A stretch of DNA of 64,000 bases from Pelodera strongyloides (lineage: Eukaryota; Nematoda; Chromadorea; Rhabditida; Rhabditidae). Location of the stretch: the NCBI GenBank assembly GCA_036852015.1, contig JAANDG010000027.1, positions 310,001 to 374,000 of the forward strand, in the 5' to 3' direction. A program made the position numbers and the translations under genes. The notes under the pieces are model-generated. The model saw only the letters and a list, made by a program, of their open reading frames with translations. It had not been told where the DNA came from and searched no databases. Shown one piece after another: positions 8,385 through 13,500 of the stretch. Numbering within the stretch: the first letter of the stretch is position 1; each line of letters begins with the position of its first letter.

Positions 8385-8572
8385 TGTACCTGGTGCTCAT
8401 GTACTCGTAAGAAAGCTTACCTCGTGCTCATGTACACGTAAGGACTTACCTGGTGCTCATGCACATGTGAGAACTATTAACTGATGCCCATGTACACGTA
8501 AGAAATCTTACCTGGTGCTCAGCTACACGTAAGAAATCATACCTGGTGCTCACGCACACGTAAGGAATCTTT
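8385..8572 (+). repeat. Tandem repeat, unit about 34 bp
   Basis: Five to six imperfect copies of TACCTGGTGCTCATGTACAC GTAAGAAATCT. Each copy contains GTAAG and TTAC(C), so each has a small hairpin. Confidence 0.8.
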
Positions 8573-9290
8573 TCCAATAAACTGTTCGCATTGACTGTGC
8601 ATCTGCACGAAGTGCGAACCACCCTCGCATACATTATCAGAATATTGATTGAAAGTAAAGGGTTTCTTCATGTATATTGTTTCATTTAATTGTTTATTGG
8701 AGCGGGGCTGGCGCCTTTGGCCTTGGCTCACAGCCAAAAGATAAAGTTTGAAAAGTTGCCAGAGAGGTTCTGATTACGCCTGGCACTTGGAAGTCGGAGA
8801 TGCGGCGTTGTAAAGTTCGAATGGAGATTCACCCCTGGATTGATCTAGCAAGTGTCGGATGTTGCAGGATTGATACTAGATTGATCTAGGACGACGCGGG
8901 ACATTTTCCAAATTGATCCAGCAATTAAACTGAGAAAAATCTCACTTGTTCTTTTCGCAAATGGAAAAAAATGAAAAATGATAGCGATTTGCGGAGATTT
9001 TATTTATCGAGCGGGCACCAGATAAACCGATAAACTGCAGGTGAAAAATAGCATATTGATTGAAACAAAGGACCTTTGCTATTTTTGCAAGTGAGTCTAT
9101 TTCATATTTAAAATTTGCTTCATTTTTCCATTAAACTTTAAAGGTGATATGTTGTGTCTATTTTATTTATTCATCTATTATGGAACATAATACACAGTAC
9201 ACAATGTGTACAACATGCACCGGGATTTAAATGGTAATATGTATATACACGAAATTAACAAAACCGTCACATATCATATAAGTCGTTTAA

Positions 9291-9728
9291 AGGGTGAGGC
9301 CCATGAGAAAAAAGTTGTCCTTACTTTACTTAAACAGGATGTCCGGAATTTTAGAAATACTTCTGTGAAAACCGCATTTCTTTACACCTAGAACTCGCAA
9401 AGTTATTCTCCGGCAAACTGTTCGGCCAGGTACCGTAGTCAGAATTAATTTTTGCGCTTTTGCGCATTACAGTATTGGAAACGCCCTGTTAATATCATAG
9501 GAATGACTTTCATTCGTTTTAACATTACTCTGAAGAGACAGGACGAAAATGAACGGATACAAACCGTAAAAACGTTCTGACTACGGTACCTGGCCGAACA
9601 GTTTGCCGGGGAATAATTATCTTAGTTCTAGGAGTAAAGAGATTCTTTTTTCACAGAAGTATTTCTCAAATTCCGGACATCCTGTGTAAATAAATTAAGG
9701 ACAACTTTTTTCTCATGGGCCTCTCCCT
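9291..9728. mobile_element. Long foldback MITE, AGGG...CCCT termini, TTAA flanks
   Basis: Arms of about 170 bp face each other. The left starts AGGGTGAGGCCCATGAGAAA and the right is its inverted partner, ending TCATGGGCCTCTCCCT. TTAA flanks both ends (9287-9290, 9729-9732). The arms share TGTCCGGAAT and the GTACCTGGCCGAACAGTTTG block. Confidence 0.85.
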
Positions 9729-10079
9729 TTAAATAAATAATAAAAAATACAGTTGCTTTTCCACTTATTCCTTCCAGTGTTCATTAAAAAAAGATAATGT
9801 TCTGAAAACACGTAATCAATAAATCAATAAACCGATAAATCAGTAGATCAATAAATCATTAAAGTAATAAATCAGTAAACAATATATCAATCAATCAGTA
9901 CATATTAATGAATCAATAAATATTAGTTCCTCGGCGGTGCCCGGGCCCACTGCGCACTGTATTGTTCAAAGTAGGTCTTTTGCTCGTTGGCCACCTGAAG
10001 AACGAATGAGTTTATCGTAGTTTTACAAAAAAAAAACAATAATACATTTAATTACCTGACCAGGTTCATCTCTTTAGAA

Positions 10080-10527: not shown

Positions 10528-13500
10528 CTAACCTGTCCACTTGTTCCAAATGTTTGTAGCTTCGTTTTTCAACCTCTGATTTGACATAATTATGAGGAAA
10601 GGAACAACAGAAGTGGCTAGAGCGCAGGTCACATCGAACCCGAAGCCAAACAGCCGGAATAGTAATGCCTCGTCGAAATACACGTAACCGACAAAGAACG
10701 CGAGTCCCAGCACAGTACAGCTTGTCATAATCACAAAGATACGGTAGAGCAGAGACGAAGAGGAAATGTTCTCGCGCACCTGAAAATGGATAAATCAAAA
10801 TTAATAGAAATGGGTGGATAGGCATTGGCGTAAGCTTGGGAATACCCAACGGTCGTGTCGGGTTTGACAAATAGAATATTGCTCATGTTGTACATAATTA
10901 AATTCTGATAAACCCTCTCGTCACTGAAATATACCGAAGCGTATGTTGAAGTACTTCATCCCCATACAGTGAAGTGGGCAATACCATATTTGCCAAAACG
11001 AACATAGACTGTTGGGTATTCTCCTGTTATAATAAAACTGACTTATTTATTTAGAGGCCCTCTCCCAACATCTTTATATAAAATAAAGTTACTTATTAAG
11101 TGTTTTTGGAGAACTGTTTACGAACGCATAGTCTAGGAACATAAAGGGAGTTTATGTGTATGGTTTAGCTACATTTAAACTTAACAGTATCCCTTGCGAA
11201 AACCATATGTAAAGTCTCCGTGTCTCGGCTTTCTCCGAGTCATTTGGACAGTTTTCTCATCACCCCTTTGTGTGCCATTGATTCTCCCTCAAAGACCAGG
11301 GCCCAGGGCCACATGGGTAGGAGAGAGAGCGCAGACACGGCAGAGACACAGGGACACTCTTATACACCCAAACCCAACCACAACGCCCAGGAACATTCCA
11401 TTCCTACTTTAATTCATATTCATATTCCAAAGCCGCGGGCCATCGCACTGATGAGACCCACCCGCGGTAAATCCTCGTATGCGAATAAGGGTCGAAACGG
11501 GGTCTGAGCCTTGCTCAGTCTGCTACACTATTATATTCATCATTCTACTACTAACTAACGCGCGACATGGTGCACTCGTCCAAATGGATGGGCCGCTAAA
11601 AATAATAAGACCCGCGTGGCAGCACTACAACTCTGGAAATTTCATTCTGACGACTACTGAGGAGGCTTGCACTAATGTAAGGTTGGCAACCACAATTTCA
11701 AGCAAGGCAGCAATTGAGTGAGAATAGCGGCAAATAATCCGCTACGACCAATCTACGGTCAAAAGAGCCTCTACAGGCTAAACTTCGGTCACGACGACCA
11801 CAAAGCACGCAGTCCCCGGTACTGGTGCCTAAATCGGCCCACGCAGGCCACAGCAAAGGAACGGAAAGCAACGTTCAAAATTCGAGGCCACGAGCGCCTC
11901 AGAATGATTCTCCTCCGAGCCCTATTGGAAAGATACAACACTGCAAGCCCTCATTTTTCCGAGTTACTTCTATAGCACCGGCACTCCTCGACATCCGGCA
12001 AACGAACGCCGCCCGGGAGTGTCTCGACCTCTTCTCGACCCATAATTCCGAGGAATACATCTTCTTGTCGCCCGGGAGTGTCTCGGCTTTCTCCGAGTCA
12101 TTTGGACAGTTTTCTCATCACCCCTTTGTGTGCCATTGATTCTCCCTCAAAGACCAGGGCCCAGGGCCACATTGGTAGGAGAGAGAGCGAAGACACGGCA
12201 GAGACACAGGGAGACTCTTATTCACCCAACCACAACGCCCAGGAACATTCCACTCCTACTCAATATTAATATTCCATATTCGATACAAAGCCCGGGTCAT
12301 CGTACTGATGAGACCCAACCCGGGCAAAATCCTCGTATGCGATAAAGGGTCGAAACGGGGTCTGAGCCCTGCTCAGTCTGCTACACTATTATATTCCATT
12401 CTACACTGAACAACGCGCGACATGTGGTGCGCCGTAGGAGAGAGAGCGCAGACACGGCAGAGACACAGGGACACTCTTATACACCCAAACCCAACCACAA
12501 CGCCCAGGAACATTCCATTCCTACTTTAATTCATATTCATATTCCAAAGCCGCGGGCCATCGCACTGATGAGACCCACCCGCGGTAAATCCTCGTATGCG
12601 ATAAAGGGTCGAAACGGGGTCTGAGCCCTGCTCAGTCTGCTACACTATTATATTCCATTCTACACTGAACAGCGCGCGACACTCCGGAACCGTACCTGAT
12701 ACCCATGGCTAATTTGCAGAGATCCTCTCCCGGCCACTATACTGCGGTAGTTCAGTTTGTACACGATAGACATGACCACGATTGAGGTAAAATCACAGAA
12801 CGCGTGAACTCCCGCAAATAGATACTGGGTGAATTTGCCTGAACATAAAGTAAAATAAACATTTATGCTTATGACTTGGTCGCAGAGGTCCTGAGCGTTA
12901 AGCGGCAAGTCACATATGACGAATTGCTCGCCGTCATCGGGCTAGGGCCAGGAGCACGAAGACGTTGACCCCTTCGAACTTAGTTATAGGTCACAGGTCA
13001 CTCTTTAGTAAAAAAGGCACTTGAGCCTTCTAGCCTGTGGGACATGGTTATGGTAATTATTTGTTTCATCTTTCTTTCGATGGCACCAACAACACTGAAT
13101 ATCATCAAAAAAAAAATTTTTTTAAGAAATAGAAAAAAAAAGTAAATATCGCCAGTTTAGCAGTGACTTACCGTCCTTGAAGTGAAACATGAGCAGAAAC
13201 GACGTGAACCACTGAAAATAAAGCATGGTTAATTTTTTTATCAGTTTGGGAGCACCTATAACTATAACGCTGATTTAGAAACATATGCATATTCCTTAGT
13301 TTTGCAATTACCCTCGTCACGTCCCCTATCTTCTTTATTTTTACGAACTTTGTGGTACTCTGATGCTCTTCCGTTTCAGAAGTAACAATTAAATAAATTG
13401 ATGTGATGCATGCTCCGTGTGAAGGCATGGTATCGGTATTTCAAAGGTGTGTAGAATCCCAGTCAAGTCAACAGGTTTTGTACCATTTATTGGTATAATA

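Follow-up and report, generated by a model that had tools for sequence, protein, structure and literature searches.

A type-CSG hammerhead ribozyme motif within the long terminal repeats of a small retroelement in the nematode Pelodera strongyloides

A 71-nt motif on the forward strand of a Pelodera strongyloides contig carries what look like all the parts of a hammerhead ribozyme in an unfamiliar order, which raises the questions of whether the fold is real, whether the order is new, and what such a motif does in an animal genome. We analyzed a 64,000-nt stretch of this contig (assembly GCA_036852015.1, JAANDG010000027.1, positions 310,001 to 374,000; here called the window, with position 1 as its first letter). 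A preliminary description of this DNA had proposed a hammerhead core at positions 11432 to 11502 with helices of 5 to 6, 5, and 6 pairs, a reversed strand order that makes helices I, II, and III cross each other, and a fourth helix that joins the far ends of helices I and II through linkers of 1 to 4 nt. Direct reading of the sequence bore out each of these points, and we refer to the motif at this position as copy 1 of a type-CSG hammerhead. From 5' to 3', its strands read UCGCA-CUGAUGA-GACCC, then CCUC-GUA-UGCGA, and then GGGUC-GAAA-CGGGG. This is the block order C-S-G in the notation of Eckert et al. 2023 (PMC10085705), where C is CUGAnGA, S is the cleavage site, and G is GAAA.

Helix I has 5 pairs between UCGCA (11443 to 11447) and UGCGA (11480 to 11484), and a sixth pair is present in two further window copies that start at 12290 and 12549. 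The CUGAUGA core lies at 11448 to 11454, and helix II has 5 pairs between GACCC (11455 to 11459) and GGGUC (11489 to 11493). Helix III has 6 pairs, one of them G-U, between its 3' strand CCUCGU (11473 to 11478) and its 5' strand ACGGGG (11497 to 11502). The GAAA core occupies 11494 to 11497, and A11497 also belongs to the 5' strand of helix III, the rest of which is 11498 to 11502. Helix IV has 8 pairs between GCCGCGGG (11432 to 11439) and CCCGCGGU (11461 to 11468), and an A-rich linker (11469 to 11472; AAAU in copy 1) leads from it to helix III. The linkers in copy 1 measure 3 nt from helix IV to helix I, 1 nt from II to IV, 4 nt from IV to III, and 4 nt from I to II. Every pair of helices crosses except III and IV; helix IV crosses both I and II. 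The GUA triplet is at 11477 to 11479, which places the predicted cut between 11479 and 11480, as had been proposed. The core residues (the G-C pair closing helix II, A15.1-U16.1, and UH at the site) are complete in the window copies.

The expectation that nested models would miss the motif held, since an Rfam scan of the window gave nothing at gathering cutoffs. With lax filters, Hammerhead_1 scored 19 bits in the window against a cutoff of 34, and Hammerhead_3 scored at most 15.7 bits against a cutoff of 48.5. Searches of the genome with the ordinary hammerhead families RF00008 and RF00163 gave no match, and the control genomes gave none either. Duplex-model energies, with loop costs left out, were −6.0, −7.1, −6.9, and −16.0 kcal/mol for helices I, II, III, and IV, respectively. 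The best nested fold of 11432 to 11502 has a minimum free energy of −25.1 kcal/mol and competes with the pseudoknotted fold.

The preliminary description had also held that no hammerhead with this strand order had been described, but the order was already published as type CSG, and a new ribozyme topology is ruled out by that report (PMC10085705). Eckert et al. found noncircular permutations of the three blocks, among them type SGC, with 583 predicted sequences and with disrupting and compensating mutants tested; type GCS, with one sequence; and type CSG, with two similar metagenomic sequences (PMC10085705). Both of the latter cleaved at the expected site, at 0.004 and 0.026 per minute, and the 77- to 78-nt RNAs are cut at the corresponding position while being transcribed in vitro (PMC10085705). 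Their discoverers rated the evidence for biological relevance of type CSG below that of type SGC (PMC10085705). As described there, CSG-1 and CSG-2 share with our motif the block order, the core residues, and the helix between stems I and II, and their fragments, a 5' fragment of 48 to 49 nt and a 3' fragment of 29 nt, agree with the 48 nt from 11432 to 11479 here (PMC10085705). That type rested on two metagenomic sequences, whereas here there are about 300 matches in one animal genome, in mobile elements and with many versions of the helices; this comparison is by description and not letter by letter (PMC10085705). Type SGC has the same circular strand order and the I-II helix, differs in its linear order S-G-C, and was first found in metatranscriptome contigs together with hairpin ribozymes (PMC10085705). 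In titles and the openings of abstracts, a range outside which most subscription papers and all preprints lie, there was no recognizable report of type CSG in an animal or a retroelement.

We searched the whole genome (159.9 Mb in 1171 contigs) for the motif. A core pattern gave 275 matches versus 0 for the reversed pattern, and a broader core pattern gave 315 matches versus 1 for its reversed control; at least one match among the roughly 100 of the 315 that were listed, at C72:322329, resembles chance. The window itself holds two more copies, at 12290 to 12360 and 12549 to 12619. The stricter of the two patterns found at least 119 stretches in bacterial and archaeal genomes and 10 in viral contigs, and when the helix test was applied to these 129 loci, one place passed, with odd spacing. 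The genomic counts against their controls, the covariation described below, and the single pass among 129 foreign loci rule out a chance origin of the motif. The topology itself is known; what is new is the count of about 300 pattern matches, the host genome, and the mobile-element context. The sole passing locus among the 129 belongs to Bacteroidales and is probably chance. As a separate observation, SL1-type RNA genes matched at 32 places in the genome with E values up to 7.7e-4, all below the family's own cutoff, and two SL loci that we inspected contain the 22-nt SL1 sequence of nematodes, in keeping with a nematode host.

We aligned 85 distinct copies with MAFFT and scored the alignment on the pseudoknotted structure against shuffled and slid partners. 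To be included, a copy had to have the CUGAUGA core, a site motif, and GAAA and to form 9 or more of 15 pairs across helices I to III; the C-S-G order was itself a selection criterion, and the percentages paired in helices I to III are partly due to selection, while helix IV lay outside the criteria. Among 1950 cells, 88.4% were paired versus 83.0% with shuffled partners, a level reached by 0 of 500 shuffles, and 31 to 48% with slid partners. Cells with a double change numbered 127 versus 60.2 shuffled and 16 to 42 slid, and the covariation score was 0.196 versus 0.115 and 0.020 to 0.042. Two other measures showed no excess over shuffling: 10 pairs had a double change, a count reached by 89 of the 500 shuffles, and there were 33 pair types, a count reached by 200. 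By helix, double changes occurred in 3 of 5 pairs in helix I, 0 of 5 in helix II, and, against the commonest pair, 0 of 6 in helix III, with 94.8, 94.6, and 96.5% of cells paired, partly by selection. Pair 4 of helix III is U-G in 73 copies, U-A in 6, and C-G in 3, a double difference between families. In helix IV, double changes occurred in 7 of 7 pairs, and 70 to 74% of cells were paired, a figure that is too low owing to a one-column shift in some families. Of the four-helix covariation that the preliminary description had anticipated among homologs, the joint signal above shuffled and slid controls stood and is carried by helices I and IV; helices II and III hardly vary.

The variation in helices I and IV was also visible in the strands themselves. 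Fully paired versions of helix I (n = 86) were UCGUA/UACGA in 38 copies, UCGCA/UGCGA in 19, UCAUA/UAUGA in 5, UCACA/UGUGA in 3, and UCUUA/UAAGA in 2. A harsher test counted only distinct strand combinations from 86 copies. Helix I was then paired at 0.781 versus 0.736 shuffled (82 of 2000 shuffles reached it), helix II at 0.787 versus 0.804, and helix III at 0.818 versus 0.826, with all shuffles reaching the values for the last two. Most combinations in this test occur once, the common ones are fully paired, and the single ones are probably decayed copies. Helices II and III lack double changes against their commonest pairs and do not exceed shuffled partners on distinct combinations, so the case for their pairing is complementarity plus the established hammerhead core. 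For helix IV, the mean longest complementary run in 57 distinct strand pairs was 5.98 versus 4.25 shuffled (maximum of 4.82 in 1000 shuffles), and the run was at least 6 in 59 of 86 copies. Unrelated perfect versions of helix IV include CCACCGGGG/CCCCGGTGG and GCTGTGGT/ACTACAGC, and in window copy 2 this helix is GCCCGGG/CCCGGGC, compensated relative to copy 1. These results support the pseudoknotted structure. Since helices I and IV stayed paired while their sequence changed, selection on the fold in an animal is very likely.

The cleavage triplet (n = 85) was GUA in 49, GUC in 31, GUU in 1, and other in 4, so that 81 of 85 carried GUA, GUC, or GUU. The A15.1-U16.1 pair was A-U in 83 of 85 copies. 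Helix II was closed by G-C or G-U in 75 of 85, and the remaining 10 include 7 rows from families with an extra U. A strict core test was passed by 56 of the 85 distinct copies; decayed copies are therefore common. In 67 of the 85 distinct copies, the linker from helix IV to helix III read AAAA with U or C as the next base. This linker was better conserved than the neighboring helix IV, and it may make a tertiary contact. Spacing between blocks in 86 distinct copies was 21 to 27 nt from C to S and 11 to 21 nt from S to G, within the limits of the search range; in the L235 family, C-to-S spacing was 28 to 30 nt and the stretch between helices IV and III was longer. The extra U is found in two multicopy families (L041, L055, L216, L217, and L225; L235 to L237), which read CUGAUGA-U-GACCCC, and several of their members have a perfect helix IV.

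The preliminary description did not include the setting of the motif, which is inside the long terminal repeats (LTRs) of a mobile element. On the forward strand of the window, LTR 1 (11221 to 11567; 347 nt) starts with TGTCTCGG, ends with GCGCGACA, and holds copy 1. It forms a direct repeat with LTR 2 (12079 to 12422; 344 nt), which is 89.8% identical to it and holds copy 2 (12290 to 12360). A truncated LTR 3 (12434 to 12681) holds copy 3 (12549 to 12619). The 511-nt interior (11568 to 12078) starts with TGGTGC, which resembles a primer binding site, and has no long open reading frame (ORF); stop-to-stop ORFs of at least 80 codons that touch it measured 85 to 133 codons, the longest of which runs into LTR 2. 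Directly after the first LTR, most loci that were read have TGGTGCAC, which likewise looks like a primer binding site. We looked for the corresponding tRNA with a single acceptor-stem pattern; it hit 4 places (each on both strands), none of them readable as a tRNA, against a control of 53 per strand.

The LTR ends are TG...CA, and the element is flanked by identical 5-bp target site duplications, CTCCG at 11216 to 11220 on the left and at 12682 to 12686 on the right. Matching 5-bp flanks were found for 10 of 12 insertions with both ends readable: CTCCG in the window, GATTC at L009, GCATA at L010, GATTT at L012, ATATC at L016, AAAAT at L019, TACTG at L022, GACAG at L026 (a solo LTR), AATTG at L030, and CCTAG at L031. 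The duplication was absent in the other two of the 12, an insertion on contig C5 (L044/L045) and a three-LTR array on contig C22 (L059 to L061). The LTRs with TG...CA ends, the 511-nt interior, and the 5-bp duplications identify an LTR-retrozyme-like element. On four other contigs (C22, C5, C33, and C48), two or three ribozyme copies lie 893 to 901 nt apart. LTR pairs were 100% identical at L016, L030, and L044 and 99 to 100% identical in several cases, and these insertions are therefore recent. The C22 array (G000:C22:428001-429852) has three copies 900 nt apart in the order LTR-interior-LTR-interior-LTR, as if a circle had been copied more than once. Elsewhere in the window, positions 9286 to 9733 are a separate dispersed repeat that is shared with L034 and whose outer parts are mutual inverted copies, and positions 8387 to 8571 hold six copies of a 31-nt tandem repeat near a CT-rich tract.

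The same motif also occurs in larger elements. On contigs C62, C13, and C101, ribozyme copies on the same strand lie 4.8 kb apart with genes in between. Between two C62 copies (L068) lies a GIY-YIG ORF (PF01541; E = 1.5e-5), followed in a different, overlapping frame by a second ORF with 62 to 67% identity over 118 to 158 residues to ORFs at L042, L043, and L053, which match the Pfam reverse transcriptase family PF00078 (E = 1e-9, 7e-10, and 2e-12, respectively). The L068 reverse transcriptase ORF had no Pfam reverse transcriptase match of its own, and neither of the two ORFs between the C101 copies (L069) had a Pfam match; all three were named through 43 to 67% identity to relatives. At L069, regions related to the final part of the GIY-YIG ORF and to the first part of the reverse transcriptase ORF stand in one frame across the junction. 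In four other loci (L042, L043, L050, and L053), the reverse transcriptase ORF ends about 500 to 600 nt before the ribozyme, and at L049, the ribozyme is followed after about 1.4 kb by the first 27 codons of a GIY-YIG ORF. When the reverse transcriptase ORF was used as a protein query, it retrieved 147 relatives; among the best 120 of them, three carried PF01541 and some carried PF00078, and almost all were unnamed. The GIY-YIG ORF gave one match to a solved structure (E = 0.2), which we took as chance. By their sequence, the carriers of the L068/L069 type are Penelope-like elements with GIY-YIG first, arranged in tandem units with pseudo-LTRs. A GIY-YIG domain ahead of the reverse transcriptase is reportedly the permuted domain order of the Naiad/Chlamys group. 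Penelope-like elements with minimal type I hammerheads share with these carriers GIY-YIG and reverse transcriptase domains, tandem units, and a ribozyme in the pseudo-LTR (PMC11167929, PMC7761336). The carriers here differ in having a type-CSG ribozyme rather than type I and in having GIY-YIG before the reverse transcriptase, where canonical elements have it after.

A third setting is a tandem array, L206 (G000:C463:17500-19200), in which a 187-bp unit is repeated 7.2 times with 96% matches and holds 7 motif copies, one of them with a broken helix III. This array is a candidate satellite-type retrozyme and resembles the satellite-type retrozymes of animals. With LTR, Penelope-like, and tandem-array carriers, the settings of ordinary eukaryotic mobile-element hammerheads thus recur with type CSG. 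The LTR element is built like the plant LTR retrozymes, which also have short ribozyme-holding LTRs, a noncoding interior, and a start resembling a primer binding site; their units are about 700 bp versus 858 nt here, and they carry a type III hammerhead, in contrast to the type-CSG motif and animal host here (PMC7761336). The same review describes animal retrozymes as lacking LTRs, a primer binding site, and a polypurine tract (PMC7761336).

The most likely explanation, in which we place considerable confidence, is that the motif is an active type-CSG hammerhead housed in the LTRs of a small retroelement that lacks long ORFs. It would cut the element's RNA after the GUA at 11479 and at the equivalent site of the other LTRs. 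We infer active cleavage and a circular RNA from the sequence. Cuts in two successive LTRs would release an 858-nt unit (11480 to 12337), which a host ligase may close into a circle, the route taken by plant LTR retrozymes. If such a circle were reverse transcribed, copies longer than one unit could arise, which would fit both the LTR-interior-LTR arrangement and the arrays with an extra LTR; circularization and multiunit reverse transcription are borrowed from the retrozyme model (PMC7761336). In tandem Penelope-like elements, the same ribozyme would cut multimeric RNA to unit length. Its role there is putative because in vitro a lizard Penelope-like element could insert without its hammerhead, which cleaved only in the presence of protein (PMC11167929). 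Within the motif, helix IV and its short linkers would keep helices I and II next to each other, as loop-loop contacts do in other hammerheads. Helix IV would have to turn back, since the far ends of helices IV and III are connected by a few linker nucleotides, and the discoverers of type SGC raised the same geometric question for some of those RNAs (PMC10085705).

The same three blocks could instead act across neighboring units, with the GUA arm of one LTR joining the CUGAUGA and GAAA of the next into an ordinary nested hammerhead, although we consider this improbable. The strands would then run III3'-GUA-I3' ... I5'-CUGAUGA-II5' ... GAAA-III5', which is the type III (SCG) order, and all helices would be identical to those of the CSG fold. 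Units do stand in tandem, at 858 nt in the window, 4.4 to 4.8 kb in other families, and 187 bp in L206, and type I hammerheads of animals reportedly cleave as dimers when their helix III is weak (PMC7761336). However, helix III here has six pairs, which makes a dimer unnecessary, and helix IV and the A-rich linker, both of which act within one copy, are conserved. The three blocks also stay close together in very different families (within the limited search range), a closeness that is unnecessary for a long-range fold. Cleavage of the published type-CSG RNAs occurs in transcripts of 77 to 78 nt, which may themselves form dimers (PMC10085705).

A fold within one copy could also belong to a dead or dying ribozyme, active while the elements spread and idle now, whose conservation reflects shared descent only. 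Many copies have broken pairs, and the strict core test fits such decay, but several multicopy families each have their own fully paired helices I and IV, which indicates that pairing was kept, and in some families many copies have exactly the same motif sequence, and some LTR pairs are 100% identical, which points to recent insertion. We give this account the same low probability as a fold across units. Much less probable still is that the motif is not a hammerhead and consists of nested hairpins, with helix IV closing a CAUC/GAUG hairpin beside a helix III hairpin, serving, for example, in packaging or priming. The minimum-energy fold of all three window copies has that shape. This structure leaves the covariation of helix I unexplained, its CAUC strand is missing in intact families such as L047/L207/L208 and L206, and the core residues that lie outside its helices are those of a hammerhead.

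An active type-CSG hammerhead in these elements would give a nearly orphan topology a genome-wide home and a context. Type CSG gains a possibly culturable host, a likely job in processing the RNA of retroelements, and a wide natural range of variants for structural study. One question for such study is how helices IV and III can be accommodated when only a few nucleotides join them, and the extra-U families may offer a natural test of the tolerance of the core, if they cleave. The LTR-retrozyme architecture is now found in an animal, where the review had described retrozymes without LTRs (PMC7761336). A broader reading, whose chances we judge to be about even, is that in one animal lineage type CSG took over the whole job of the hammerhead through circular RNA, in Penelope-like elements, in satellite-type retrozymes, and in true LTR retrozymes, the first in an animal, and that the two metagenomic CSG ribozymes came from such nematode elements.
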